Shown here piece after piece: positions 19,843 through 48,795 of a stretch of 64,000 bases of DNA (position 1 is the stretch's first letter; each line of letters begins with the position of its first letter). Under the pieces are notes generated by a model that had not been told where the DNA came from, made no database searches, and saw only the letters and a program-made list of their open reading frames with translations. Both the position numbers and the translations under genes were made by a program. This stretch comes from Planotetraspora mira (lineage in GTDB: Bacteria > Actinomycetota > Actinomycetes > Streptosporangiales > Streptosporangiaceae): the NCBI RefSeq assembly GCF_016863275.1, contig NZ_BOOO01000009.1, positions 1 through 64,000 on the forward strand, read 5' to 3'.

Positions 19843-21126
19843 ATGCCGGCTGTCGTTCTCGTGGGTGCCCAGTGGGGCGATGAGGGTAAGGGAAAGGCCA
19901 CCGACCTGCTCGGCGGCGACGTCGACTACGTGGTCCGCTACCAAGGGGGGAACAACGCGGGCCACACGGTGGTGATCGGGGACCAGAAGTACGCTCTGCA
20001 CCTGCTGCCGACCGGGGTGCTCTCCCCCGACGTCGTGCCGGTCATCGGCAACGGCGTCGTCATCGATCCGGGCGTGCTGCTCGGCGAGATCGACGGGCTG
20101 GCCGGCCGGGGGATCGACTGCGACCGCCTGCTGATCTCCGCGAACGCGCACCTGATCATGCCCCACCACAAGGCGATCGACAAGGTCAGCGAGCGGTTCC
20201 TGGGCAAGTCCAAGATCGGCACGACCGGCCGGGGCATCGGCCCCGCCTACGGCGACAAGATCTACCGCGTGGGCATCCGCGTGCAGGACCTCCTCGACCC
20301 CGGCATCCTCCGCCAGAAGATCGAGGCCGCGCTCGCGGAGAAGAACCAGATCCTCACCAAGATCTACAACCGGCGCGGGCTCGACGCGGACAAGGTCCTC
20401 GACGAGTACCTCGGCTACGCCGAACGGCTGCGCCCCCACATCGCCGACACGTCGCTGATCCTGAGCAATGCACTCGACGAGGACAAGGTCGTGCTGCTCG
20501 AGGGCGGCCAGGGCACGCTCCTCGACATCGACCACGGCACCTACCCGTTCGTGACGTCGAGCTCTCCCACGTCGGGCGGCGCGTGCGCGGGGTCCGGCAT
20601 CCCGCCGAACCGGCTCACCCGGGTCATCGGCATCCTCAAGGCGTACACGACCCGCGTCGGCTCCGGCCCCTTCCCCACCGAACTGCTCGACGAGCAGGGC
20701 GAGTGGCTGCGCCAGACCGGAGGCGAGTACGGCGTGACCACCGGCCGCAACCGCCGCTGCGGCTGGTTCGACGCGGTCATCGCGCGCTACGCCACCCGGA
20801 TCAACGGCGTGACCGACTTCTTCCTGACCAAGCTCGACGTGCTGTCCGGTCTCGAGCGGATCCCCGTGTGCGTCGCCTACGACGTGAACGGCGTTCGCCA
20901 CGACGAGATCCCGATGACGCAGACCGAGTTCCACCACGCCACGCCGATCTACGAGGAGTTCCCCGGCTGGCAGGAGGACATCACCAGCGCCAAGACCTTC
21001 GACGACCTGCCGCCCAACGCGCAGGCCTACGTCCGGGCGCTGGAGGAGATGAGCGGCGCTCGGATCTCCGCGATCGGCGTCGGCCCCGGCCGCACGCAGA
21101 CCCTGCAGATCCGTTCCCTGCTGTGA
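19843..21126 (+). CDS. purA: Adenylosuccinate synthetase
   Basis: A 427-residue GTP-dependent enzyme that joins aspartate to IMP, the first step of AMP synthesis. The N-terminal P-loop/catalytic motif [32 protein letters not shown] and the C-terminal [12 protein letters not shown] are all intact. The start is ATG 19843, with AGGAG seven bases upstream. The leader contains a terminator-like hairpin, unusual for this gene. Confidence 0.97.
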
Positions 21127-21226
21127 TTTCCGCAGGCATGTGCCGTACGGGATGTTTTGCGGGCATGCACGCCAGGGACCGGGAGATGCCCGGGGACAAG
21201 CGGCGGAGACAGTAAGGTACGCCGTT

Positions 21227-22153
21227 GTGCACGGATACGTTGAGCTACACGGTCACCGGGGAGCGCGCGGGCTGAGGCCCGAGAACACGCTCCCCGGTCT
21301 CGCGTTCGCGCTGGAGCTGGGTGTCGACGCGTTGGAGTTCGACGTGGCGATGTCGGCCGACGGGCAGCTCGTGCTCACCCACGACCTGATCGTCTCTCCC
21401 GTGACCAGCGCCGACACCGGCATGGCCACGCCGGACGACGAGATGTTCCCCTACGTGGGGAGGCCGATCAACTCGCTGACGCTCGCGCAACTGCGCACGC
21501 TCGACGTCGGCGTACGGCTGCCGCAACGCCCCGACGACGTGTTCGCCCTCACGCAGGTGCCGTTGCCGGACACCCGGATGCCCACGCTGGGCGCGGTGCT
21601 CGGGCTGATCGGCGCCCTCGGGGCGGACAAGGTCCGGCTCAACGTGGAGCTGAAGTCCAATCCCACCCGCCTGGACCTGTCCGCCGACCCGGTCGAGTTC
21701 GCCGAGCGGGTCGTGAAGGAGCTCGACAAGCACGACAAGCTCTCCCGGGCGTCCCTGCTCAGCTTCGACTGGCGCGTCCTGAAGGCCGCCGAGCAGCTGG
21801 TCGACCAGCGGTACGCGCTGATCGAGCGGGTGACGGCGAACCCCGAGTGGATGAACGGGCTCGACCTCGCCGACTTCGACGGCGACATCCCCGCGGCCGC
21901 CGCCGAGGTGGGGGCGACGACGCTTTCTCCCGACCGCGTGCTCGTCGACGAGGCCCTCATGGCCGGCGCGTCCCTGCGCGGCATGCCCGTCGTCGTGTGG
22001 ACGGTCAACGACCCCGAGGAGGCGTCCCGGCTGATCGACATGGGCGCGTCCGCGATCGTCACCGACTACCCCGATCGCATGCGCCGCCTCTGGAAGGCGC
22101 GCAACCTCCCGTTGCCGGAGCCGGTCCGCCCGCTCCGGCACGTCGACGCCTGA
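21227..22153 (+). CDS. Glycerophosphodiester phosphodiesterase
   Basis: A 308-residue GDPD-family enzyme hydrolysing glycerophosphodiesters to glycerol-3-phosphate and an alcohol. It has the catalytic HRGARGLRPENT motif at the N-terminus, EFDVAMSADGQLVLTHD with the metal-binding E/D and second catalytic His, and LNVELK. GTG 21227 (AAGG upstream) is chosen because the frame before it lacks family similarity. There is no signal peptide, so it is cytoplasmic. It is convergent with the ferredoxin gene. Confidence 0.9.
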   Translation: MHGYVELHGHRGARGLRPENTLPGLAFALELGVDALEFDVAMSADGQLVLTHDLIVSPVTSADTGMATPDDEMFPYVGRPINSLTLAQLRTLDVGVRLPQRPDDVFALTQVPLPDTRMPTLGAVLGLIGALGADKVRLNVELKSNPTRLDLSADPVEFAERVVKELDKHDKLSRASLLSFDWRVLKAAEQLVDQRYALIERVTANPEWMNGLDLADFDGDIPAAAAEVGATTLSPDRVLVDEALMAGASLRGMPVVVWTVNDPEEASRLIDMGASAIVTDYPDRMRRLWKARNLPLPEPVRPLRHVDA

Positions 22154-22181
22154 CCAGGTCGTCGTAGGAGGCCTGGGCGCG

Positions 22182-22376
22182 TCACTCCTCGATCGAGAGC
22201 GCTCCGGACGGGCAGAGCTGAACCGCGCGGCGGACCGCCGCCTCGCGGGACGCGGGGGGATCATGATCGAGCACGACCACCGTCCCGTCGTCCTCGCTCT
22301 GGTCGAAGACCTCCGGCACGGTGAGCGCGCACATGCCCGCCCCCACGCATACGCCGGTGTCCGCCTTGATCTTCAT
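22182..22376 (-). CDS. Ferredoxin, small [3Fe-4S]-type, P450 partner
   Basis: A 64-residue ferredoxin starting at ATG 22376, behind GGGAGGAA. The cluster ligands are CVGAGMC and a distal CP near residue 54; the second position of the usual CxxCxxC is Ala or Gly, as in [3Fe-4S] ferredoxins that serve bacterial P450s. It lies 11 bp downstream of the P450 gene and is surely cotranscribed, so it is the presumed electron donor. No ferredoxin reductase is nearby. Confidence 0.93.
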   Translation of the reverse strand: MKIKADTGVCVGAGMCALTVPEVFDQSEDDGTVVVLDHDPPASREAAVRRAVQLCPSGALSIEE

Positions 22377-22387
22377 CGCGTTCCTCC

Positions 22388-23584
22388 CTACCAGGTGACC
22401 GGCAGGCGGTGCACCCCGTAGATGGCCATGTCCGAGCGCATCGGGACGTCCTCGGCCGGCACGGCGAGGCGCAGACCGGGGAAGCGCCGCAGCAGGGCCG
22501 GATAGGCGATGCGCATCTCCGCCCTGGCCAGCTGCTGGCCGAGGCACTGGTGCACGCCGTGCCCGAAGGTGAGATGGCCGTGGACGGGCCGGGAGACGTC
22601 CAGCGTCTCGGCCTCCCCGAACCGCTCCGGGTCCCGGTTGACCACGGCCGCCGCGATGGTCACCGCCTCACCGGCCTTGATCAGATGGCCGTCCAGATCG
22701 ACGTCCTCCAGGGCGGTCCGGATCGGGCCGATGTGGATGATGGTGAGGTAGCGCAGCAACTCCTCGACGGCACCCTCCACGACGGCCGGATCATCGCGCA
22801 CCGCCGCGAGTTGCTCGGGGTTGGTCAGCAGCGCGAACGTGCCGAGCCCCAGCATGTTCGCGGTCGTCTCATGACCGGCGACGAGCAGAAGCAGGCCGAC
22901 TCCGGCGAGTTCCTCTTCGTCCAGCTCTCCTCCGGCCACCAGGCCGCCGAGCAGGTCGTCGGAGGGCTCGGCGCGCTTGCGCCGGACGAGGTCGCGCAGA
23001 TAACCGAGAAGGTCGTCCATCGCGGCCTTGGCCTGCTCCGGCGTCGAGCGCAGGCTCAGCATCACCGCGGAGTCCCGCTGGAACCTCTCCCTGTCGTCGT
23101 ACGGCACGCCGAGCAGCTCGCATATCACCAGCGAGGGGATCGGCATGGCGAAGGCCTGGACGAGGTCGACGGGGCCGCCCTGGCTCTCCATGGCGTCCAG
23201 GCGGTCGTTGGTGATCTGCTCGATCCTCGGCTCGAGCTGCTTCATCCTGCGCACCGTGAACTGACCGGTCAGGAGCTTCCGGAAGCGGGTGTGCTCAGGC
23301 GGATCCATCCGGATGAAGAAGCCGGGCGGCGTCTTGAACTCCTTCATCTTGATCAACCGGTTCTGGATGGGCGGATGGAGGAGCTCGGGCCGGGTGCTGA
23401 ACGAGGGGTGGGCGAGCACCGCACGGGCCAGGGCGTAACCGGTCACGAGCCAGCCCTCGTGGTCGTCCGCATAGATCATCCGGTGGATCGGCGTCTCCTC
23501 GCGGACCCGGGTCAGTTCGTCAGGCGGGTCGAAGGGGCGCTCGCGAGCAGTCGTGTACGTCAGGCCGGGTATCGCCTCTGTCAT
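22388..23584 (-). CDS. Cytochrome P450
   Basis: A 398-residue soluble bacterial P450. The I-helix oxygen-activation motif is AGHETTANM, the K-helix ExxR reads ELLR within VEELLRYLT, and the heme loop is FGHGVHQCLGQQLAR with the cysteine ligand. It resembles the CYP105-like group of actinomycete xenobiotic or secondary-metabolite hydroxylases, but the subfamily is not certain. GGAG precedes ATG 23584. It forms an operon with the ferredoxin; the divergent TetR gene and shared palindrome suggest substrate-induced expression. Confidence 0.95.
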   Translation of the reverse strand: MTEAIPGLTYTTARERPFDPPDELTRVREETPIHRMIYADDHEGWLVTGYALARAVLAHPSFSTRPELLHPPIQNRLIKMKEFKTPPGFFIRMDPPEHTRFRKLLTGQFTVRRMKQLEPRIEQITNDRLDAMESQGGPVDLVQAFAMPIPSLVICELLGVPYDDRERFQRDSAVMLSLRSTPEQAKAAMDDLLGYLRDLVRRKRAEPSDDLLGGLVAGGELDEEELAGVGLLLLVAGHETTANMLGLGTFALLTNPEQLAAVRDDPAVVEGAVEELLRYLTIIHIGPIRTALEDVDLDGHLIKAGEAVTIAAAVVNRDPERFGEAETLDVSRPVHGHLTFGHGVHQCLGQQLARAEMRIAYPALLRRFPGLRLAVPAEDVPMRSDMAIYGVHRLPVTW

Positions 23585-23635
23585 GACTCACTCCTTGTCT
23601 GCTTGTCAGCTTCCTCCACACCTAGCATCATTCGG

Positions 23636-23659
23636 TGCAAATTTGCAATGGATGCAAAT
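23636..23659. promoter_or_regulatory. Candidate TetR operator between P450 and tetR
   Basis: A perfect 12-bp palindrome TGCAAATTTGCA (23636-23647) followed by a third half-site TGCAAAT (23653-23659), in the only AT-rich island of this region. It lies 52 bp from the P450 start and 41 bp from the regulator start, so one site could control both promoters. Binding by the adjacent TetR protein is inference. Confidence 0.6.
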
Positions 23660-23687
23660 ATGATTTGAATGTCGTAAAGTTCAAGTT

Positions 23688-24299
23688 ATGGGCGATGCGG
23701 TGGGCTTGCGGGAACGCAAGAAGCTACGCACCAGGCGAGCGCTGATCGAGGCGGCCCTGCGTCTGTTCGAGGAGAAGGGCTACGAGGAGACGACGGTCGC
23801 GGAGATCACCGCGGCCGTGGACGTCTCGACGAGGACGTTCTTCAGCTACTTCACGAGCAAGGAGGACGTCGTCTTCTTCGACGGCGAGTCCCGGGTCGAG
23901 GCCGCCCTCAAGATGATCGCCGACCGCAGGCCCGCGGAGACCGTCGTCGACCTCCTCCTGCGGGTCACCAGCCACAGCCTCGACGCCGTCAAGGACGCCG
24001 ACCTGACGGTGGAACTGACCCCCGCCCGCCGCCACCTGATCACGACGGTGCCGGCCCTCCGGGCCCGCGGGCTGGACCTGCTGTTCGAGACGCAGCAACG
24101 CCTGGCCGACGCCCTCCACCGGGCCTACGCCGACGAACTCGACCCCATCGAGGCCGCCGCCGCCATCGGGTCCCTCATGGGCGCGGCCCATCTGGCCACG
24201 ACCATCAGCATGGAGCGAGGCGAGACCCCCGAGCAGGTGTGGGCCGCGGGCAGGCGGGCCATGGAAATCGCGATACGCGGCCTATCCTCAATCGGCTGA
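23688..24299 (+). CDS. TetR-family transcriptional regulator
   Basis: A 203-residue repressor. The N-terminal helix-turn-helix (about residues 12-60) contains TRRALIEAALRLFEEKGYEE and VAEITAAVDVSTRTFFSYF. The C-terminal ligand/dimer domain carries the SSXX-type pattern seen in actinomycete TetR_C_17-like proteins. It is transcribed divergently from the P450-ferredoxin operon, so it most likely represses that operon and itself. A C-rich run (about 24300-24330) follows the stop, then the 53-bp repeat array. Confidence 0.92.
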   Translation: MGDAVGLRERKKLRTRRALIEAALRLFEEKGYEETTVAEITAAVDVSTRTFFSYFTSKEDVVFFDGESRVEAALKMIADRRPAETVVDLLLRVTSHSLDAVKDADLTVELTPARRHLITTVPALRARGLDLLFETQQRLADALHRAYADELDPIEAAAAIGSLMGAAHLATTISMERGETPEQVWAAGRRAMEIAIRGLSSIG

Positions 24300-24336
24300 C
24301 CCCCCACCCCCACCCCCACCCCCCACCCCCTCGCGC

Positions 24337-24678
24337 GTGATCATGCACACATTCGCGAACCTGCCCCCTGACCAGCCACCCTCTCCGCCGTGATCATGCA
24401 CACATTCGGAAATCCAGGCCCTGAACAGCCATTTCCCGGTTCGTGATCATGCACATGTTCTGCGGCGGATGCGCTGTGCTGCGGAGAAACCGTTCGTGAT
24501 CATGCAATTGCCTGATCATGAACTGCATTTCCGCAGGTCGAGACCTGCCTCTACGAATCTGTGCATGATCACAAAATGCGTTGTGGCAGGTGGAGGGGCC
24601 TTTCCACGAACCTGTGCATGATCACGCGGAGCGTTCGCGCAGGTCTGTACGGCTCATGCCGAATGTGTGCATGATCAC
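24337..24678. repeat. Symmetric 4+4 array of 53-bp repeats (core GTGCATGATCAC)
   Basis: Four cores in one orientation (GTGATCATGCAC at 24337, 24390, 24443, and 24496 with the last base changed) are followed by four in the opposite orientation (24508 degenerate, 24561, 24614, 24667). Every step within each half is exactly 53 bp, and the halves meet in a near-perfect palindrome with its axis between 24507 and 24508. Each unit also carries weaker conserved blocks (CGCAGGTC about 24 bp in; CGAATGT at the end). It fills the gap between the convergent tetR and corA genes. It is not a known insertion sequence. REP/BIME-like behaviour is inference. Confidence 0.9.
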
Positions 24679-24689
24679 GCCGGGAGGGG

Positions 24690-25811
24690 TCAGAGCCAGC
24701 CGTTGCGGCGGAAGGCTCGGTGCAGCAGCGTGCAGGCCACGATCATGAGGCCGATCACCACGGGATAGCCGTAGGCCGCCCGCAGTTCCGGCATGTGATC
24801 GAAGTTCATCCCGTAGATGCCCGCGATCATCGTGGGGACCGAGATGATCGCGACCCAGGACGAGATCTTCCGCATGTCCTCGTTGGCGAGCGCGTTCGAG
24901 CGGGCCAGCGCGGCCTGCAGGATGGAGTCGGACAACTCGTTGGACGCCTGGACCTGCTCGCACACACGGGACAGGTGGTCGCCGACGTCGCGGAAGTACT
25001 CCCGCATCTCCGACGGGATCATGCGGCGCTGGGGGAGGGCGTTGAACGGCGTCTGCAGGGGGGCGACGGCCCGCTTGAGCTCGAGCATCTCCCGCTTGAG
25101 CTGGTAGATGCGGTTGATGTCGCGAGAGCTGACCTCGGCGAAGACGGCCGCTTCGACCTCTTCGAGCTCGGCCTGCATGAGATCGGCGACCTGGAGGTAC
25201 TTGTCGACGACGTGGTCGGCGATGGCGTGCAGCACACCCGTCGGGCCACGGCCCAGCAGCTTCGGCTTGTCCTCGAGCTTCTCCCGGACGTCGGCGAGCG
25301 GGCAGTGCCTGCCGTGCCGTACGGTCACGACGAAGTCGGGGCCCACGAACAACATGATCTCGCCGGTGCCGATGATCTCGCTGGTGGCGGTCAGCACCTC
25401 GTGATCGAGGAAGGCGACGGTCTTGAGCACGACGAAGATGGAGTCGCCGTACCTTTCGACCTTGGGCCGCTGGTGGGCCTTGATCGCGTCCTCGACCGCC
25501 AGGGGGTGCAGACCGAAGACGTCGGCCAGCCATTCGACCTCGGGCGCCGCCGGCTCGTGCAGGCCGACCCACACGTACGCGTTGGGCAGGGAATTGCCGG
25601 TGTTGTGCGCGCGGACGAGGCTCACGGCCTCCGCGATGCCGTCGGCGGCGACCTTCGTCCCGCCGATGTAGGCGCCGAATTCGACGAGGGACTTGCTCGG
25701 GGGAACACAACCGCTCAGCTTCTCCGGGGGATTGATCACGGACGCGCTGAGACGAGTAGGGATGACCCGGGTGTTCCTAGTGATACGGGGGAAAATCGCT
25801 GAAGAGCGCAT
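24690..25811 (-). CDS. corA: CorA-family magnesium/divalent cation channel
   Basis: A 373-residue protein with a large cytoplasmic N-terminal domain and two C-terminal membrane helices (about 305-330 and 340-365) joined by the signature loop YGMNF. Family proteins form pentameric Mg2+ (also Co2+/Ni2+) channels gated by intracellular Mg2+. The basic tail HRAFRRNGWL is typical. The start is at 25811, with GGGAAGGGA upstream; the first 30 residues are poorly conserved, so an internal start is possible. The 53-bp repeat array begins 11 bp after its stop codon. Confidence 0.93.
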   Translation of the reverse strand: MRSSAIFPRITRNTRVIPTRLSASVINPPEKLSGCVPPSKSLVEFGAYIGGTKVAADGIAEAVSLVRAHNTGNSLPNAYVWVGLHEPAAPEVEWLADVFGLHPLAVEDAIKAHQRPKVERYGDSIFVVLKTVAFLDHEVLTATSEIIGTGEIMLFVGPDFVVTVRHGRHCPLADVREKLEDKPKLLGRGPTGVLHAIADHVVDKYLQVADLMQAELEEVEAAVFAEVSSRDINRIYQLKREMLELKRAVAPLQTPFNALPQRRMIPSEMREYFRDVGDHLSRVCEQVQASNELSDSILQAALARSNALANEDMRKISSWVAIISVPTMIAGIYGMNFDHMPELRAAYGYPVVIGLMIVACTLLHRAFRRNGWL

Positions 25812-25864
25812 GGCGGTCCCTTCCCGCCCGAGCCGGCACGCTCCACGCGCGACGTGATGTCACC

Positions 25865-25874
25865 CCTTATAAGG
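25865..25874 (-). promoter_or_regulatory. Perfect palindrome CCTTATAAGG upstream of corA
   Basis: A 10-bp perfect palindrome with an AT-rich TTATAA centre, 54 bp upstream of the corA start. It could be a -10 region or an operator for corA. Placement is the only support. Confidence 0.3.
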
Positions 25875-25916
25875 CGTGAACTGCCCCTCGGGCTCTGTTG
25901 TGAAGTGGTCGGGAGT

Positions 25917-25935
25917 GCGCACGTCGCACGTGCGC
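25917..25935. promoter_or_regulatory. 19-bp inverted repeat in corA-purD gap
   Basis: GCGCACGT and ACGTGCGC are exact inverted arms separated by CGC. The size and symmetry fit a dimeric repressor site. It could serve either divergent gene. Confidence 0.35.
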
Positions 25936-26064
25936 GAGCACGTACTGACGGGATCACCAGAACTCATCCCGAACCACCTCCAATCGCCACGAGAGGGGAC
26001 GAAGCCTGCCTAAGTTACCACATGCAAGGGTTGGCCGCCTTTTGAGCGTACCCAACCCCCACGT

Positions 26065-26076
26065 GTGATCATGCAC
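26065..26076. repeat. Solitary 53-bp-family core upstream of purD
   Basis: An exact GTGATCATGCAC core, identical to the array cores at 24337-24454, without neighbours at plus or minus 53 bp. Confidence 0.6.
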
Positions 26077-26158
26077 TACTTGTCAAAATCAGCCCGTGCC
26101 TCCCGCGATGCGGCAGCGAGCGGAGCGAGCGCACACGAGCAGGCGCGACAATGGACAC

Positions 26159-27400
26159 GTGCGCGTTCTCGTCATCGGATCCGGGGGCCGCGAGCATGCT
26201 CTGTGCCGCGCCCTGCGACTCGACCCGGCCGTCTCAGAGCTCCACTGCGCCCCCGGCAACGCCGGGATCGCGGAAGTGGCGACCCTGCACTCCGTGACAC
26301 CCACGGACGGGGCCGCCGTCTCCGCTCTGGCCGTGCGGCTGGGTGCCGACCTGGTCGTCATCGGGCCGGAGGCCCCGCTGGTCGCGGGCGTCGCCGACGC
26401 CGTCAGGGCTGAGGGCGTCCCCTGCTTCGGCCCGTCGAAGGAGCCTGCCGCGATCGAGGGCTCCAAGGCCTTCGCCAAGGACGTCATGGTGGCCGCGGGG
26501 GTCCCCACCGCGCGGTCGTTCACCTGCGCGACCGACGACGAGGCCGCCGCCGCGCTCGACGCGTTCGGCCCGCCGTACGTAGTGAAGGACGATGGCCTGG
26601 CCGCGGGCAAGGGCGTCGTCGTGACGAGCGACCGCGACGAGGCGCTGGCCCACGCCCGGGCGTGCGAACGGGTCGTCATCGAGGAGTACCTCGACGGTCC
26701 CGAGGTGTCGTTGTTCGCGCTGTGCGACGGGGCGGCCGCCGTGCCGCTCCAGCCCGCGCAGGACTTCAAGCGCGCCTATGACGGCGACGAGGGGCCGAAC
26801 ACCGGCGGCATGGGCGCCTACACGCCGTTGCCCTGGGCTCCCGGCGATCTGACCGAGCAGGTCATGGCCGAGGTCGTCAGGCCGACGGTCGCCGAGCTCG
26901 CCCGCCGCGGCATGCCGTACAACGGGGTCCTGTATGCGGGGTTGGCCCTCACGAAGGCCGGGCCGCGGGTCATCGAGTTCAACGCCCGGTTCGGCGACCC
27001 GGAGACGCAGGTCGTGCTCGACCGGCTGGCGACGCCGCTCGCGGGCCTGCTGCTCGCCTGCGCGACGGGAGACCTCGCGGCGCACGAACCTCTCCGCTGG
27101 CGTGGCGGCGCGGCGGTGACCGTGGTGGTCGCGGCCGAGAACTACCCGGCGGATCCGGTTAAGGGCGACGCCATCGAGGGGCTCCCGCCGGCGACCCCGA
27201 ACGCGTACGTCCTGCACGCCGGCACCGCCTTCGACGGCGACCGCCTGGTGTCGAACGGAGGCAGGGTGCTCAACGTGGTCGGCACCGGCGCGGACATCGC
27301 GGAGGCGCGGGCGGCCGCCTACGGGGCGCTCAAGAGGATCTCGATGCGCGGCTCCCACCATCGGTCCGACATCGCGCTGTCCGCGGTGGCCGAGGCCTGA
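26159..27400 (+). CDS. purD: Phosphoribosylamine-glycine ligase (GARS)
   Basis: A 413-residue ATP-grasp ligase converting phosphoribosylamine and glycine to GAR, step two of purine synthesis. The conserved N-terminus VLVIGSGGREHAL, EEYLDGPEVSLFAL, DFKRAYDGDEGPNTGGMGAY and FNARFGDPETQ are all present. GTG 26159 gives the family N-terminus; upstream in-frame starts add non-homologous sequence. It is followed 44 bp later by purC, so they probably form one transcription unit. Confidence 0.96.
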   Translation: MRVLVIGSGGREHALCRALRLDPAVSELHCAPGNAGIAEVATLHSVTPTDGAAVSALAVRLGADLVVIGPEAPLVAGVADAVRAEGVPCFGPSKEPAAIEGSKAFAKDVMVAAGVPTARSFTCATDDEAAAALDAFGPPYVVKDDGLAAGKGVVVTSDRDEALAHARACERVVIEEYLDGPEVSLFALCDGAAAVPLQPAQDFKRAYDGDEGPNTGGMGAYTPLPWAPGDLTEQVMAEVVRPTVAELARRGMPYNGVLYAGLALTKAGPRVIEFNARFGDPETQVVLDRLATPLAGLLLACATGDLAAHEPLRWRGGAAVTVVVAAENYPADPVKGDAIEGLPPATPNAYVLHAGTAFDGDRLVSNGGRVLNVVGTGADIAEARAAAYGALKRISMRGSHHRSDIALSAVAEA

Positions 27401-27444
27401 CCCGGGCGGTCTCCGCCTGTGCGGGGCCGAATAAACTCGGCACG

Positions 27445-28293
27445 GTGAAACACCTCCACTCCGGCAAGGTCCGCGACCTGTACGAGACCGACGACGGCCT
27501 GCTGTTGATGGTGGCCTCCGACCGGATGTCGGCGTTCGACCACGTGCTCGAACCAGGCATTCCCGACAAGGGCGAGATACTGACCCGCCTGTCGTTGTGG
27601 TGGTTCGACCAACTCAAGGACGTCGTCCCCAACCACGTCGTCTCGGCGGACGTGCCGGCCGAGTTCGCGGGCCGTGCCGTCCTGTGCCGCAAGCTGCGGA
27701 TGGTGCCCGTGGAGTGCGTGGCGCGCGGGTATCTGACGGGCGGCGGGCTCCTCGAGTACCGCGCCGGCGGCGCCGTCTCCGGCGTACGGCTCCCGCCCGG
27801 TCTCGACAACGGGTCGCGACTGCCCGAGCCGATCTTCACCCCCTCGACGAAGGCCCCGATGGGCCGGCATGACGAGCCGATGACGTTCGACCAGGTCGTC
27901 GATGAGGTCGGCGCCGAGGTCGCGGAGATGCTCAGGCGGATCACGCTCGACGTCTACGCGCGTGGCGCCGAGATCGCCCTCGAGAGGGGCATCATCCTGG
28001 CCGACACCAAGATCGAGCTCGGCTGGGACGCCGACGGCGTGCTGACCCTGGGCGATGAGATCCTGACGCCGGACTCCTCCCGGTTCTGGCCGCGTGAACT
28101 CTGGGAGCCGGGACGGCCGCAGCCGTCGTTCGACAAGCAGTACGTCAGGGACTGGCTGGTCTCCCCCGAGTCCGGCTGGGACCGTAACTCCGGTGAGGCG
28201 CCCCCGCCGCTTCCCGACAAGGTCGTCGAACGGACCCGGCAACGCTATGTGGAGGCATTCGAACGGCTGACCGGATCGGCCTTCAGGAGTTAG
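27445..28293 (+). CDS. purC: SAICAR synthetase
   Basis: A 282-residue phosphoribosylaminoimidazole-succinocarboxamide synthase, which adds aspartate to CAIR in purine synthesis. The signatures KVRDLYE, MVASDRMSAFDHVL, PVECVARGYLTGG and the DTKIELG/EILTPDSSRFW block are intact. The start is GTG 27445. The purD-purC pairing here and purA at 19.8 kb suggest a purine regulon, although the genes are scattered as in other actinomycetes. Confidence 0.96.
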   Translation: MKHLHSGKVRDLYETDDGLLLMVASDRMSAFDHVLEPGIPDKGEILTRLSLWWFDQLKDVVPNHVVSADVPAEFAGRAVLCRKLRMVPVECVARGYLTGGGLLEYRAGGAVSGVRLPPGLDNGSRLPEPIFTPSTKAPMGRHDEPMTFDQVVDEVGAEVAEMLRRITLDVYARGAEIALERGIILADTKIELGWDADGVLTLGDEILTPDSSRFWPRELWEPGRPQPSFDKQYVRDWLVSPESGWDRNSGEAPPPLPDKVVERTRQRYVEAFERLTGSAFRS

Positions 28294-28456
28294 TCACTCC
28301 AGTCACACCCGCATCAGTGGCATGGAGCTCCATCTAGGGCCCTCCGGGGGTTGTTCCCCCGCGAAACGCCCGGGATAGCGGCTACTCTGGGCCGACGGCG
28401 TGGCTGCCGCCATTTTGCGGGTCCCCCACCCTTCCCCCGACTTAGGAGTCTCATTC

Positions 28457-29734
28457 ATGGTTCGTTACCGCGTGCGCGGTGGCAACGTACTGCGTGGAAC
28501 CGCCTTCATCCAGGGCGCGAAGAACGCCGTACTGCCCATGATCGGGGCGGCGCTGCTCGCCTCAGAGGGCCGCACGGTGCTGCGCAACGTACCCGTGATC
28601 GAGGACGTGCGCAGAGCCGTCGAGCTCGCGGAGGCCATCGGCGCCAAAGTGGAGTTCCACGAGACCGAGCGGACGCTGGTGATCGATGCCTCGCGGCTCA
28701 CCAGCCCGGTTCTCCCCGCCCACATCGCGCGACGGTTCCGCGGCTCCGTGTTGTTCGTCCCCGCCCTGCTGCACCGGCTCGGCGAGGCGATCATCGAGGG
28801 CATCGGCGGCTGCAACCTCGGCAGCAGAAACCTGGACTTCCACTACCTCGGCTACAAGCGCCTCGGCGCGATCGTGGACGAGGGTGAGAGCGTCATCCAC
28901 ATCAAGGCGGCCGGGCTCCTCGGCGCTCCGCTTTACCTCGACACGCCCTCTCACACGGGCACAGAGAACCTCATCATGGCCGCGGCCCTCGCCAAGGGCA
29001 CCACGATCATCGAGAACGCGGCGCTGGAGCCCGAGGTCCTCGACGTGATCGGGATGCTCTCCCGCATGGGCGCCAAGATCAGCGGTGGCGGCACCGGCTT
29101 CATCACGGTCGAAGGCGTCGACGAGTTGACCGCGGTCGAGCACACCGTGATGCCGGACCGGCTCGACGCCGGCGTCTTCGCGATGGCCGCCGCCATCACG
29201 GGCGGCGAGGTGAACCTCGTCGGCGCCTCCCTCGAGCACCTCGGCGTCGTCCGGTGGAAGCTGGAGCAGATGGGCGTCGAGTTCGAGACCGACGGCGCGG
29301 TCCTCCACGTCCGGCGCGACCGTAACCTCCGGCCGATCAACGTGATCACCGACACCTACCCGGGCTTCGCGACCGACCTGCAGTCGCCGCTCATGACGGT
29401 GGCCTGCCTCGCGGACGGCTCCAGCTACATCCACGAGCGGATCTTCGACGGGCGCTTCGCGCTCGCGGGAGAGCTCAACAAGATGGGAGCCCAGATCGAG
29501 GTCGACGGCAGCCGCGCGGTGGTCCACGGACCCACACCGCTGCACGGCACCGAAGTGACGGCTCACGATCTGCGATCCGGAATCGCACTCGTGCTGGCCG
29601 GTCTGGCCGCCGATGGAGAGACGACGATCGACTCCGGATATCTCATCGATCGCGGACACGCTGCCCTCGCTCAGCGTATGCAGGCGCTCGGCGCAGATGT
29701 GGAACGGGAAATTTCCCCTTTGAGTGAGGGCTGA
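28457..29734 (+). CDS. murA: UDP-GlcNAc 1-carboxyvinyltransferase (MurA family)
   Basis: A 425-residue enolpyruvyl transferase, catalysing the first committed step of peptidoglycan precursor synthesis. It has the N-terminal GAKNAVLP motif, the fosfomycin-target cysteine in IGGCNLGSRN, and C-terminal DLRSGIALVLAGL. It begins at ATG 28457 with AGGAG upstream. Several segments (RRFRGSVLFVPALLHRLGE, HYLGYKRLGA) differ from the usual actinobacterial MurA, so this could be a second paralogue; the rest of the genome is needed to tell. The retained cysteine implies normal fosfomycin sensitivity. Confidence 0.88.
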   Translation: MVRYRVRGGNVLRGTAFIQGAKNAVLPMIGAALLASEGRTVLRNVPVIEDVRRAVELAEAIGAKVEFHETERTLVIDASRLTSPVLPAHIARRFRGSVLFVPALLHRLGEAIIEGIGGCNLGSRNLDFHYLGYKRLGAIVDEGESVIHIKAAGLLGAPLYLDTPSHTGTENLIMAAALAKGTTIIENAALEPEVLDVIGMLSRMGAKISGGGTGFITVEGVDELTAVEHTVMPDRLDAGVFAMAAAITGGEVNLVGASLEHLGVVRWKLEQMGVEFETDGAVLHVRRDRNLRPINVITDTYPGFATDLQSPLMTVACLADGSSYIHERIFDGRFALAGELNKMGAQIEVDGSRAVVHGPTPLHGTEVTAHDLRSGIALVLAGLAADGETTIDSGYLIDRGHAALAQRMQALGADVEREISPLSEG

Positions 29735-29891
29735 GTTCAGAAACCCATTTATCCGCGTCGACCAGCGGAAACATTACATTTCCCGGAACCACCGGCCCCT
29801 CGCAGAATGGCATTCGGCAAATCCGGGCGTGACATTACGGCCTTAACAAGCGATCGTTCCAAAGAGAACCACAACAACGAGGGCACGTGGG

Positions 29892-31238
29892 ATGGGACGA
29901 ACATTGGTCGAACGCACGGAAGAGACTCCGCGCGGGTCGCGCCTGAGCGCGGGGACGCCGGACCTCACCATCGGAGTGGTGGGGTCGCACGACCTCGTCG
30001 AGCGGGTGATGCTCATGGGGCATGCGGCGGCTCCGGTACCTTGCCGGTTGGTCGCCGCCGCCTACCGGGACGAGCAGGAAGCGGCCGACAAGGTGACCCG
30101 GCTCGGTCCCGGCGTGGACGCCTGCCTGTTCGCCAGCCCGGTCCCGTTCGAGCTGGCCCGGCGGGCGGGGGTGCTGACGGTGCCCGCGACGCATGTGCAA
30201 CTCGGCGGTGCCGCTCTGGTCTCGGCGATCGCGCGCGCGATGCTGGACGACCGCATCGATCCCCGGCGGGTGAGCATCGATGTGCTGAGCCGATCGGAGA
30301 TCGACGAGGCGTACTCGGATCTGAACCTCCCCTCGGGGGATGTCCACAGCCGGGACGAGCCGGGGGCCACGGGAACCATCACGGCCTTCCACGAGCGGCT
30401 GCTGCGTCAGGGCGTCACGACGGGCGTGCTCACGTGCGTCCAGGGAGTCGCCGACCGGCTGGCCGCCGCGGGGATGCCGGCCATCCCGATCCGGCCGACG
30501 TCGGCCGCGATCCGCTCCGCCCTGCACACGGCGGGCCTGCTGGGCGCCCGGCACCGGCTGGAGGAGTCGCAGCTCACCGTCATCCTGGTGGAGGTGCCGA
30601 CACTGCGCGAGCCCGTACGGCGGGCCTCCCCGCGTTACTGGCGCGACGAGTTGCGACTGTCCCTGCACCGGTTGCTGGTCCAGGAGGCCAACCGGATCAA
30701 CGCGAGCGTGTGGCCCATCGACGACCACAGCTATCTGGTGGTGGCGACCAAGGGATCGATCGCCGCGGCCACCGACGGCTTCCGGGTCCTGCCGTTCGCG
30801 GCCAGGATCCGCGAGGAGCTGGGGCTGGCCGTCGAGGTGGGTGTGGGCATGGGCCGTACGACCCATGACGCCGAGACCCACGCACGGGGCGCGCTGACCC
30901 GGAGCCAGGGCGGCAAGCAGGCGCAGGGCTTCGCGGTGGACCGCGAGGGCAGGGCGCTCGTCCCGCCGCCCCGGATGCCGCCCCAGTCGGGCGGGCAGGC
31001 CAAGCCCAGAGGCGTCGAGGTGCTCGCCCGCCTGGCCGCCAAGCTCGAGGGTGGGGACACGGTCGTGGACGCGGAGGGTGCGGGGCGCATGCTCGGCGTC
31101 ACGCCCCGCACGGCTCGGAGGTTGTTGCGCACGCTGGTCGACGAGGGACTCGCGTGGCCGCTTCCGCCGAACCGCACTCCGCAGCCCGGCCGGCCGCGTC
31201 AGCTCTATCGGCTCATCGTGGAGAAGCTGAGCCGCTGA
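29892..31238 (+). CDS. Regulator-like protein with C-terminal winged helix, unrecognised
   Basis: A 448-residue protein starting at ATG 29892. The N-terminal part (about 25-190) is alpha/beta with a Rossmann-like first strand (DLTIGVVGSHDLVERVM). A middle part (about 225-330) has the alternating pattern of a GGDEF/nucleotide-cyclase-like or GTP-cyclohydrolase-III-like fold (LTVILVEV, NRINASVWPIDDHSYLVVA, VEVGVGMGRTTHDAE) but no GGDEF motif. The last 75 residues look like a winged helix (AGRMLGVTPRTARRLLRTLVDEG). I do not recognise the family; a ligand-sensing DNA-binding regulator is plausible. Its monocistronic position gives no pathway clue. Confidence 0.75.
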   Translation: MGRTLVERTEETPRGSRLSAGTPDLTIGVVGSHDLVERVMLMGHAAAPVPCRLVAAAYRDEQEAADKVTRLGPGVDACLFASPVPFELARRAGVLTVPATHVQLGGAALVSAIARAMLDDRIDPRRVSIDVLSRSEIDEAYSDLNLPSGDVHSRDEPGATGTITAFHERLLRQGVTTGVLTCVQGVADRLAAAGMPAIPIRPTSAAIRSALHTAGLLGARHRLEESQLTVILVEVPTLREPVRRASPRYWRDELRLSLHRLLVQEANRINASVWPIDDHSYLVVATKGSIAAATDGFRVLPFAARIREELGLAVEVGVGMGRTTHDAETHARGALTRSQGGKQAQGFAVDREGRALVPPPRMPPQSGGQAKPRGVEVLARLAAKLEGGDTVVDAEGAGRMLGVTPRTARRLLRTLVDEGLAWPLPPNRTPQPGRPRQLYRLIVEKLSR

Positions 31239-47774: not shown

Positions 47775-47945
47775 CTACGTGATCACAAACTGAATATTCG
47801 CAGCTCAGGCCGTATTCATACGAATTCGCGCATGATCACGAACCGTGGTTTCGCAGCTCAGTCGTCATCTTTCCGAATGTGTGCATGATCACGCACCATG
47901 ATTGCGCAGGTCGGAGGGGCTTTCTCCGAAGGTGTGCATGATCAC
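47775..47945. repeat. Four-copy direct array of the 53-bp repeat
   Basis: Cores at 47775 (degenerate), 47828, 47881 and 47934, all in the GTGCATGATCAC orientation and each exactly 53 bp apart. The inner blocks CGCAGSTC and CCGAATGT recur at the same offsets as in the 24.3-kb array. The sequence after the last core (ATGATCACGCGGGAGGGGT) nearly matches that after the 24667 copy. It lies at the 3' side of the SDR gene and upstream of the acyltransferase gene. Confidence 0.88.
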
Positions 47946-47988
47946 GCGGGAGGGGTGGGTGGTGCGGTGCGGTGCGCCTGAGCGGGGG

Positions 47989-48795
47989 TCACAGGGAGCA
48001 GGCGGTCTGGCTGGCGGACCAGAGGGCCTCGGCGAGCCGGGGATCGGTCATCGTCCGGGGCACGGTCGCGGGGACGTTCTTGACGAAGAACCGGCCCGGG
48101 TGGCCGACCCCGTCGGCGTGGGTGACCAAATGGACGATCCTGTCCGCCCCCGCCTCCGGCGGCTCGCTCATTCCCGGCACGACCGTCAGGAACTTCATGA
48201 AGAACGTGCCCGCGGCGAAGCCCGTGTTGAGGACGCCGGGATGCAGACAGGTGGCCGCCAGCCCGCGGTCGGCGAGCGCGACGGTGAACAGGGCGTTGGC
48301 CTGTTTGGTGTCGCCGTACTGCAGCCATCCGCTCCACCGGCGCCGATCCCTGGACAGGTCGGCCGGATCCAGGCGGCCCGTCCTGGCCGCGCGCGACGAG
48401 GTCGTGACGACCCGCGCGGACGACTCCTTCAGGCGGTCGAACAGCAGGTTCGTCAGGAGGAACGGAGCCAGATGATTGACCTGCATCATGAGCTCGTGCC
48501 CGTCGGCCGTCCGCTCCCGCCGGGTCGTCATCACGCCCGCGTTGTTGACCAGGACGTCGATGCGTTCGTAGCGGGCGAGCAACTCGTCCGCGAGTCTCCG
48601 GACGTCGTCCAGGACCGCGAAGTCGGCCTGGAACGTGCCAGGCGCGGTTCCGGTGGCGGCGGCGACTTGATCGGCCACCGCTGCCAGCCTGGCGGGGGTA
48701 CGCCCCACGAGCACTAGTTGGTGCTCCCGCTTTGCGAGTTCAAGCGCCACAGCAGCACCGATTCCGGCACTGGCCCCAGTAAGCACTGTAATCAT
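47989..48795 (-). CDS. Short-chain dehydrogenase/reductase
   Basis: A 268-residue SDR of the retinol-dehydrogenase-like group. It has the cofactor motif TGASAGIGAAVA at the N-terminus, NNAGVM, Ser in VTTSSRAAR, and the catalytic YGDTK (YxxxK). The Arg in GRTPARL after strand 2 suggests NADP(H). ATG 48795 follows GGAGG. The substrate is unknown; the neighbours do not help. Confidence 0.9.
   Translation of the reverse strand: MITVLTGASAGIGAAVALELAKREHQLVLVGRTPARLAAVADQVAAATGTAPGTFQADFAVLDDVRRLADELLARYERIDVLVNNAGVMTTRRERTADGHELMMQVNHLAPFLLTNLLFDRLKESSARVVTTSSRAARTGRLDPADLSRDRRRWSGWLQYGDTKQANALFTVALADRGLAATCLHPGVLNTGFAAGTFFMKFLTVVPGMSEPPEAGADRIVHLVTHADGVGHPGRFFVKNVPATVPRTMTDPRLAEALWSASQTACSL

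Follow-up and report, generated by a model that had tools for sequence, protein, structure and literature searches.

Behind eukaryotic rRNA genes, TTF-I binds Sal boxes that serve as protein-roadblock terminators, and roadblocking by DNA-bound proteins is also known in bacteria. In actinobacteria, MIRU are intergenic tandem units of about 50–100 bp that may overlap stop codons; the units are near-identical and occupy about 40 loci. The REP/BIME families, in turn, are tagged GTAG or CGTC (PMC3733652).

The arrays reported here were first noticed in a 64-kb stretch of Planotetraspora mira DNA, referred to below as the window, and they resemble each of these systems in part. Like REP/BIME, for which termination is among the roles proposed, they comprise hundreds of dispersed extragenic copies, often behind genes and clustered in both orientations, and are patchy between species; unlike REP/BIME, they have a strict 53-bp step and free spacers, and the same core occurs in distant families. 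Like MIRU, the Planotetraspora arrays are intergenic and tandem, and some overlap stop codons, but what is kept is limited to a short core plus two blocks, arrays number ~200, and opposed pairs occur. Their position behind the stop codon is that of intrinsic terminators, including the bidirectional ones between convergent genes, whereas the array strand in Planotetraspora has no structure in excess of that in shuffled sequence. As with Sal boxes and TTF-I, oriented multi-copy putative protein sites lie behind a gene and might act as a one-way polymerase stop; the bacterial arrays, however, stand at many unrelated genes, and the likeness is an analogy only. No published description of the core or of the 53-bp repeat was found in the searchable open-licence literature, and Rfam 15 gave no match at the gathering score across positions 20000–30000 of the window.

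Repeat arrays in the window

The earlier note had described eight 12-bp cores at exact 53-bp steps, four per strand, between convergent genes, and this description agreed with the core start coordinates and the gene assignments. The left array (24337–24507, plus strand) has cores at 24337, 24390, 24443, and 24496; it lies behind the 3′ end of a TetR-family regulator gene (23688–24299, plus strand; PF00440, E = 2.4e-15) and is oriented away from it. The right array (24508–24678, minus strand), with cores at 24508 (degenerate), 24561, 24614, and 24667, lies behind the 3′ end of a CorA-like Mg2+ transporter gene (24690–25739, minus strand; PF01544, E = 5.3e-59), again oriented away from the gene, whose stop is at 24690 and which may have a longer form starting at 25811. 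The arms meet without a gap at 24507/24508. Relative to GTGATCATGCAC, six of the eight cores are exact; the core at 24496 has a GCAA end (one mismatch), and the innermost minus-strand core at 24508 reads TTGCCTGATCAT (three mismatches). When GTGATCATGCA was searched in the window at ≤1 mismatch, 12 matches were obtained against 0.61 expected from shuffles, a count reached in 0 of 100 shuffles.

Two further blocks recur at fixed offsets, as had been proposed, and both proved real. The TTCG block is exemplified by ATTCGC at 24351–24356 (plus strand), 15 bp past the core start, and the second block, GACCTG/CGCAGGTC, by a copy at approximately 24642–24649 (minus strand), between the cores at 24614 and 24667, which reads GACCTGCG on the minus strand and CGCAGGTC on the plus strand. 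The plus-strand interval from the TetR stop codon to the first core (24300–24336) is C-rich, as is typical of Planotetraspora arrays, in which C-rich DNA precedes the first core.

A second array at about 47776–47946 (minus strand) has cores at 47776 (degenerate), 47829, 47882, and 47935, all on the minus strand, behind an SDR gene (47989–48714); it is kept in Planotetraspora silvatica and in sp. A-T 1434. A lone exact core at 26065–26076 (plus strand), with CCCCACGT just before it, is a doubtful member of the set. The CorA and purD-like genes on either side of it are divergent, and repeats of this family are seldom located in such a region.

Unit structure and helical spacing

From 120 units, the consensus C-GTGATCATGCACA-N2-TTCG-N13-(Y)GACCTGC-N12 was derived, after which the next core follows. 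The terminal core of each array is without the TTCG and GACCTGC blocks, and an array is therefore [unit]n plus a bare core, with 2–6 units. Of the 613 spacings measured between same-strand cores across the genus, 532 equal 53 bp exactly, and most of the others are 52, 54, 21, 30/31, 42, 62, 95, or 105 bp. For spacings outside 52–54 bp, phase at 10.5 bp was non-random when each occurrence was counted (n = 46, p ~1e-5) and weakly so when each distinct spacing was counted once (p = 0.096). The suggestion that a protein array sits on one helical face is consistent with these values, since 53 bp is close to five turns and the exceptions lie mostly near whole helical turns.

Copy number and position relative to genes

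The earlier note had proposed a genome-wide search, and further copies were abundant in P. mira and its relatives. The 9.03-Mb P. mira genome holds 739 copies of the 11-mer GTGATCATGCA (373 + 366) and 316 + 307 copies of the 12-mer core, with 0 copies of a reversed-sequence control. Using our own gene calls, 40 arrays of 2–6 units were counted in 859 kb, from which ~200 arrays are extrapolated for the genome. TGATCA pairs at the 53-bp step number 165–700 per genome in five genus genomes and in sp. A-T 1434 (G062); the relatives compared were Planotetraspora kaengkrachanensis (G001), P. silvatica, P. thailandica, P. phitsanulokensis, and sp. A-T 1434.

Coding sequence holds only 2 of 135 exact cores. 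Mapped against gene ends, the directional core recurs at 53-bp intervals past stop codons: in most arrays the outermost core starts between −4 and +60 bp relative to the stop, with the array oriented away from the gene, and at offset −4 the TGA of GTGATC is the gene's own stop codon. Convergent intergenic regions are the commonest site, and divergent promoters are nearly free of arrays. Tandem gene pairs also harbor opposed pairs and reversed single arrays, and the direction rule is loose there, with 13 tandem loci carrying opposite arrays against 19 carrying same-orientation arrays. A partition site, one of the roles first considered, is unlikely for ~200 arrays at gene 3′ ends, and a CRISPR array was rejected on layout and spacers, as the spacers hold conserved blocks and the ~200 dispersed loci run in both directions.

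The exact 4+4 mirror symmetry did not hold up as a property of the element. Elsewhere there are 2–6 units per arm, with unequal arms, single arms, or opposed pairs whose centre gaps range from 11 to 131 bp. Dyads thus have no fixed centre geometry, and for this reason the close symmetry about 24507/24508 is regarded as accidental. At 24337–24678 each convergent gene has its own separate, oriented array, two in all, and the symmetric layout is not the functional element.

Conservation between species

Aligned DNA of P. mira and P. kaengkrachanensis is ~90% identical. Over aligned units, core columns 0–9 differ in 0–5%, the TTCG block in 3–15%, and the GACCTG block in about 12–32%, whereas array spacers differ in 44%; convergent intergenic DNA without arrays, taken for comparison, is 71% identical. 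Array locations are the same in the two species, except for one locus that has other sequence instead. Among the named species the array was kept in 55 of 59 comparisons, and against sp. A-T 1434 in 8 of 12, with array length differing between species by whole units. Because cores, the 53-bp step, and positions are kept beside spacers that differ by 44%, core and spacing are under selection, as is position; the unit is thus constrained, as had been suspected.

Within P. mira, variable unit positions are 40% identical inside one array and 37% between arrays, far from the near-identical tandem units that characterize MIRU. The closest-matching spacers often sit in opposite arms of one dyad, and sharing of spacers between opposite arms implies that the arms exchange sequence; such reuse points to exchange within the locus or to duplication with inversion. 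In several opposed arrays on contigs C1 and C2 (clusters 16/17, 25/26, 27/28, 30/31, and 34/35), spacers are 88–96% identical across arms.

Spacers common to the arms of one dyad would also be expected if the arrays were REP/MITE-like selfish repeats, moved by a transposase or recombinase other than RAYT, found at 3′ ends as insertions elsewhere are harmful, and with cores held intact by copy exchange. Such a proliferating element is the main rival to a terminator, though an unlikely one. Array positions are nearly fixed between species, the 53-bp step is strict, and the cores are unchanged beside nearly saturated spacers, which whole-unit copying would not yield. Membership of REP/BIME in the strict sense, also raised in the earlier note, was not sustained. 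The repeats are high-copy, extragenic, and mostly behind genes, but Planotetraspora units are directional, with hairpins equal to shuffled sequence, where a palindromic unit of 20–40 bp would be expected; palindromic core pairs do exist in the relatives G028 and G093. The consensus carries neither a GTAG nor a CGTC end tag (definition in PMC3733652). The RAYT (Y1) transposase proposed as a search target was not found in P. mira or the other high-copy genomes: PF01797 gave no match in G000, G001–G003, G062, G187, G093, G053, G028, G054, G327, G386, G445, or G534, a search that a very divergent enzyme could escape, and was present in G004 and G121. Opposed arrays enclose ordinary genes only, with no transposase, and an autonomous mobile element between them was accordingly rejected. 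Phage origin was likewise discarded, as IMG/VR gave 26 single matches and no arrays.

Hairpins and base composition at gene ends

Where a gene end is followed by an array in its own orientation, the strongest 45-nt hairpin was −17.2, equal to that of shuffled sequence (−17.2, n = 133); at array-free ends it was −23.6 versus −20.2 shuffled (n = 437, p = 8e-19). Same-orientation ends thus have no hairpin, and the same was seen in G327 and G062, whereas tandem ends with only an opposite-pointing array keep theirs (−21.6, n = 13). Part of this absence is geometric, because the array occupies the space after the stop. Behind single tandem arrays a strong hairpin occurs downstream in 3 of 12 cases, and mostly there is none. 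In one ortholog pair, the array is matched at the same place in P. thailandica by a terminator with a 16-bp stem; no general replacement emerged from the array-absent orthologs, of which 1 of 8 had a clear hairpin. C exceeds G on the array strand both in P. mira (+0.087 versus −0.004, p = 2e-7) and in G327 (+0.236 versus +0.029, p = 4e-7).

C-rich, hairpin-free ends, together with Rho in all tested genomes, would suit termination by Rho alone, with unstructured C-rich RNA as the loading site and the core as an RNA pause or recognition signal, no DNA-bound protein being involved. This account is improbable. Genomes without arrays have Rho equally, a Rho site has no need of a constant 11-bp core or of 53-bp spacing, and the direct arrays of G386 show no C excess (n = 2). 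A Rho dedicated to the arrays was rejected, as genomes with and without arrays alike have Rho together with a second Rho-like match. That second, weaker match to the Rho RNA-binding domain lies at G000 C59:6130-6288, and equivalents are present in all Streptosporangiaceae searched. Strict spacing, the helical preference, and a constant, non-palindromic core fit a protein bound to DNA better than a signal in the RNA.

Many phased, protein-like sites at ~1 array per 25 kb, most commonly between convergent genes, could also belong to a chromosome-architecture or topology element, such as a site for a nucleoid protein, gyrase, or an SMC-related protein, located where supercoils accumulate from convergent transcription. 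We regard this as still less probable, as single arrays stand behind tandem genes, direction goes with the nearest stop, hairpins are replaced in one direction only, and close relatives are without arrays.

Oriented arrays as candidate terminators or insulators

The arrays lie behind genes and exclude other terminators there, in part for the geometric reason given above. The absence of hairpins at same-orientation arrays, the P. thailandica ortholog, and the excess of C over G together lead us to infer an oriented terminator or insulator, and of the functions listed in the earlier note a termination/insulation element is the best candidate given the hairpin pattern at gene ends. The locus in the window would then consist of two oriented copies of a dispersed 3′-end element, a putative hairpin-free terminator or insulator array acting as a protein roadblock, perhaps with Rho; we hold this tentatively, at a little short of an even chance. 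Both the bound protein and the termination activity are predicted from sequence. A candidate sequence-specific DNA-binding protein would occupy the cores on one helix face, and the multi-copy protein–DNA block would halt RNA polymerase coming out of the gene, with Rho possibly aiding release on C-rich, unstructured RNA. Two arrays that face each other would act as a barrier in both directions, separating convergent genes, or a gene from its neighbor.

A broader claim, possible but with the chances clearly against it, is that the arrays represent a new bacterial terminator class, neither hairpin nor plain Rho site, in which oriented, multi-copy sites phased at five helical turns replace intrinsic terminators at ~200 gene ends, the protein is dedicated and horizontally spread, and the 11-bp core is its site across several actinobacterial families. 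If the terminator reading holds, some actinobacteria would terminate many genes at arrayed protein-binding sites rather than at RNA hairpins. Actinomycete engineering would then gain insulators, polymerase roadblocks and helical phasing could be studied in a natural setting, and the arrays would point strongly to a widespread candidate DNA-binding protein. Were they selfish instead, the strict 53-bp period of these scattered repeats, with constant cores beside nearly saturated spacers, would still demand explanation.

Distribution of the core in other actinobacteria

Across the class, 395 genomes were covered, and in most of them the 11-mer does not rise above background, with 0 to about 20 copies per genome and usually <8; the same holds for the genomes sampled from the phylum's other classes. 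It is amplified inside the family in G093, G053, G028, G054, and G187, and in the distant genomes G327 (413 copies), G386 (328), G534 (106), and G445 (90). Copies outside Planotetraspora also have C-rich DNA before the core, but the tails differ, the steps are uneven, or the core lies in perfect hairpins; spacing is irregular in G327 and G386. Amplification can be patchy within one genus, with 328 copies in G386 versus 0 in G342. Nothing speaks more strongly for the selfish repeat described above than this patchiness, which would be odd in a terminator that the cells need; the occurrence of the same core with other tails in distant families and the inverted core pairs of G028 and G093 can be added to it.

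A short core common to several taxa, with lineage-specific tails, hundreds of copies, and in some genera inverted pairs behind genes, also recalls the DNA-uptake signal sequences of naturally competent actinobacteria. Uptake sequences are common inside genes, which is at odds with the rarity of exact cores in coding sequence noted above, and strict 53-bp clustering serves no role in uptake; we consider this origin highly improbable.

In G028 (L234, L242, and L258), perfect inverted core pairs recur at a fixed step of 37/38 bp, and in G093 (L259–L270) at steps of 29, 39, 49, and 58 bp; here the same core forms perfect hairpins, as in intrinsic terminators, and the pairs look like two-way terminators. 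Samples of the negative genomes G342 and G068 contained no core dialects. The dialect GTGATC[T]TGCA was found in G187, G054, and G121, where GTGATCTTGCA is amplified alongside GTGATCATGCA. Several core dyads of G327 C1 (L287–L306; for example near 35.5, 150.8, and 286.6 kb) have another intergenic inverted repeat, CAGAATGCTGGGTT ... CCAGCATTCTG, at their centre, and CAGAATGCTG, taken from this repeat, has 28 copies in 400 kb.
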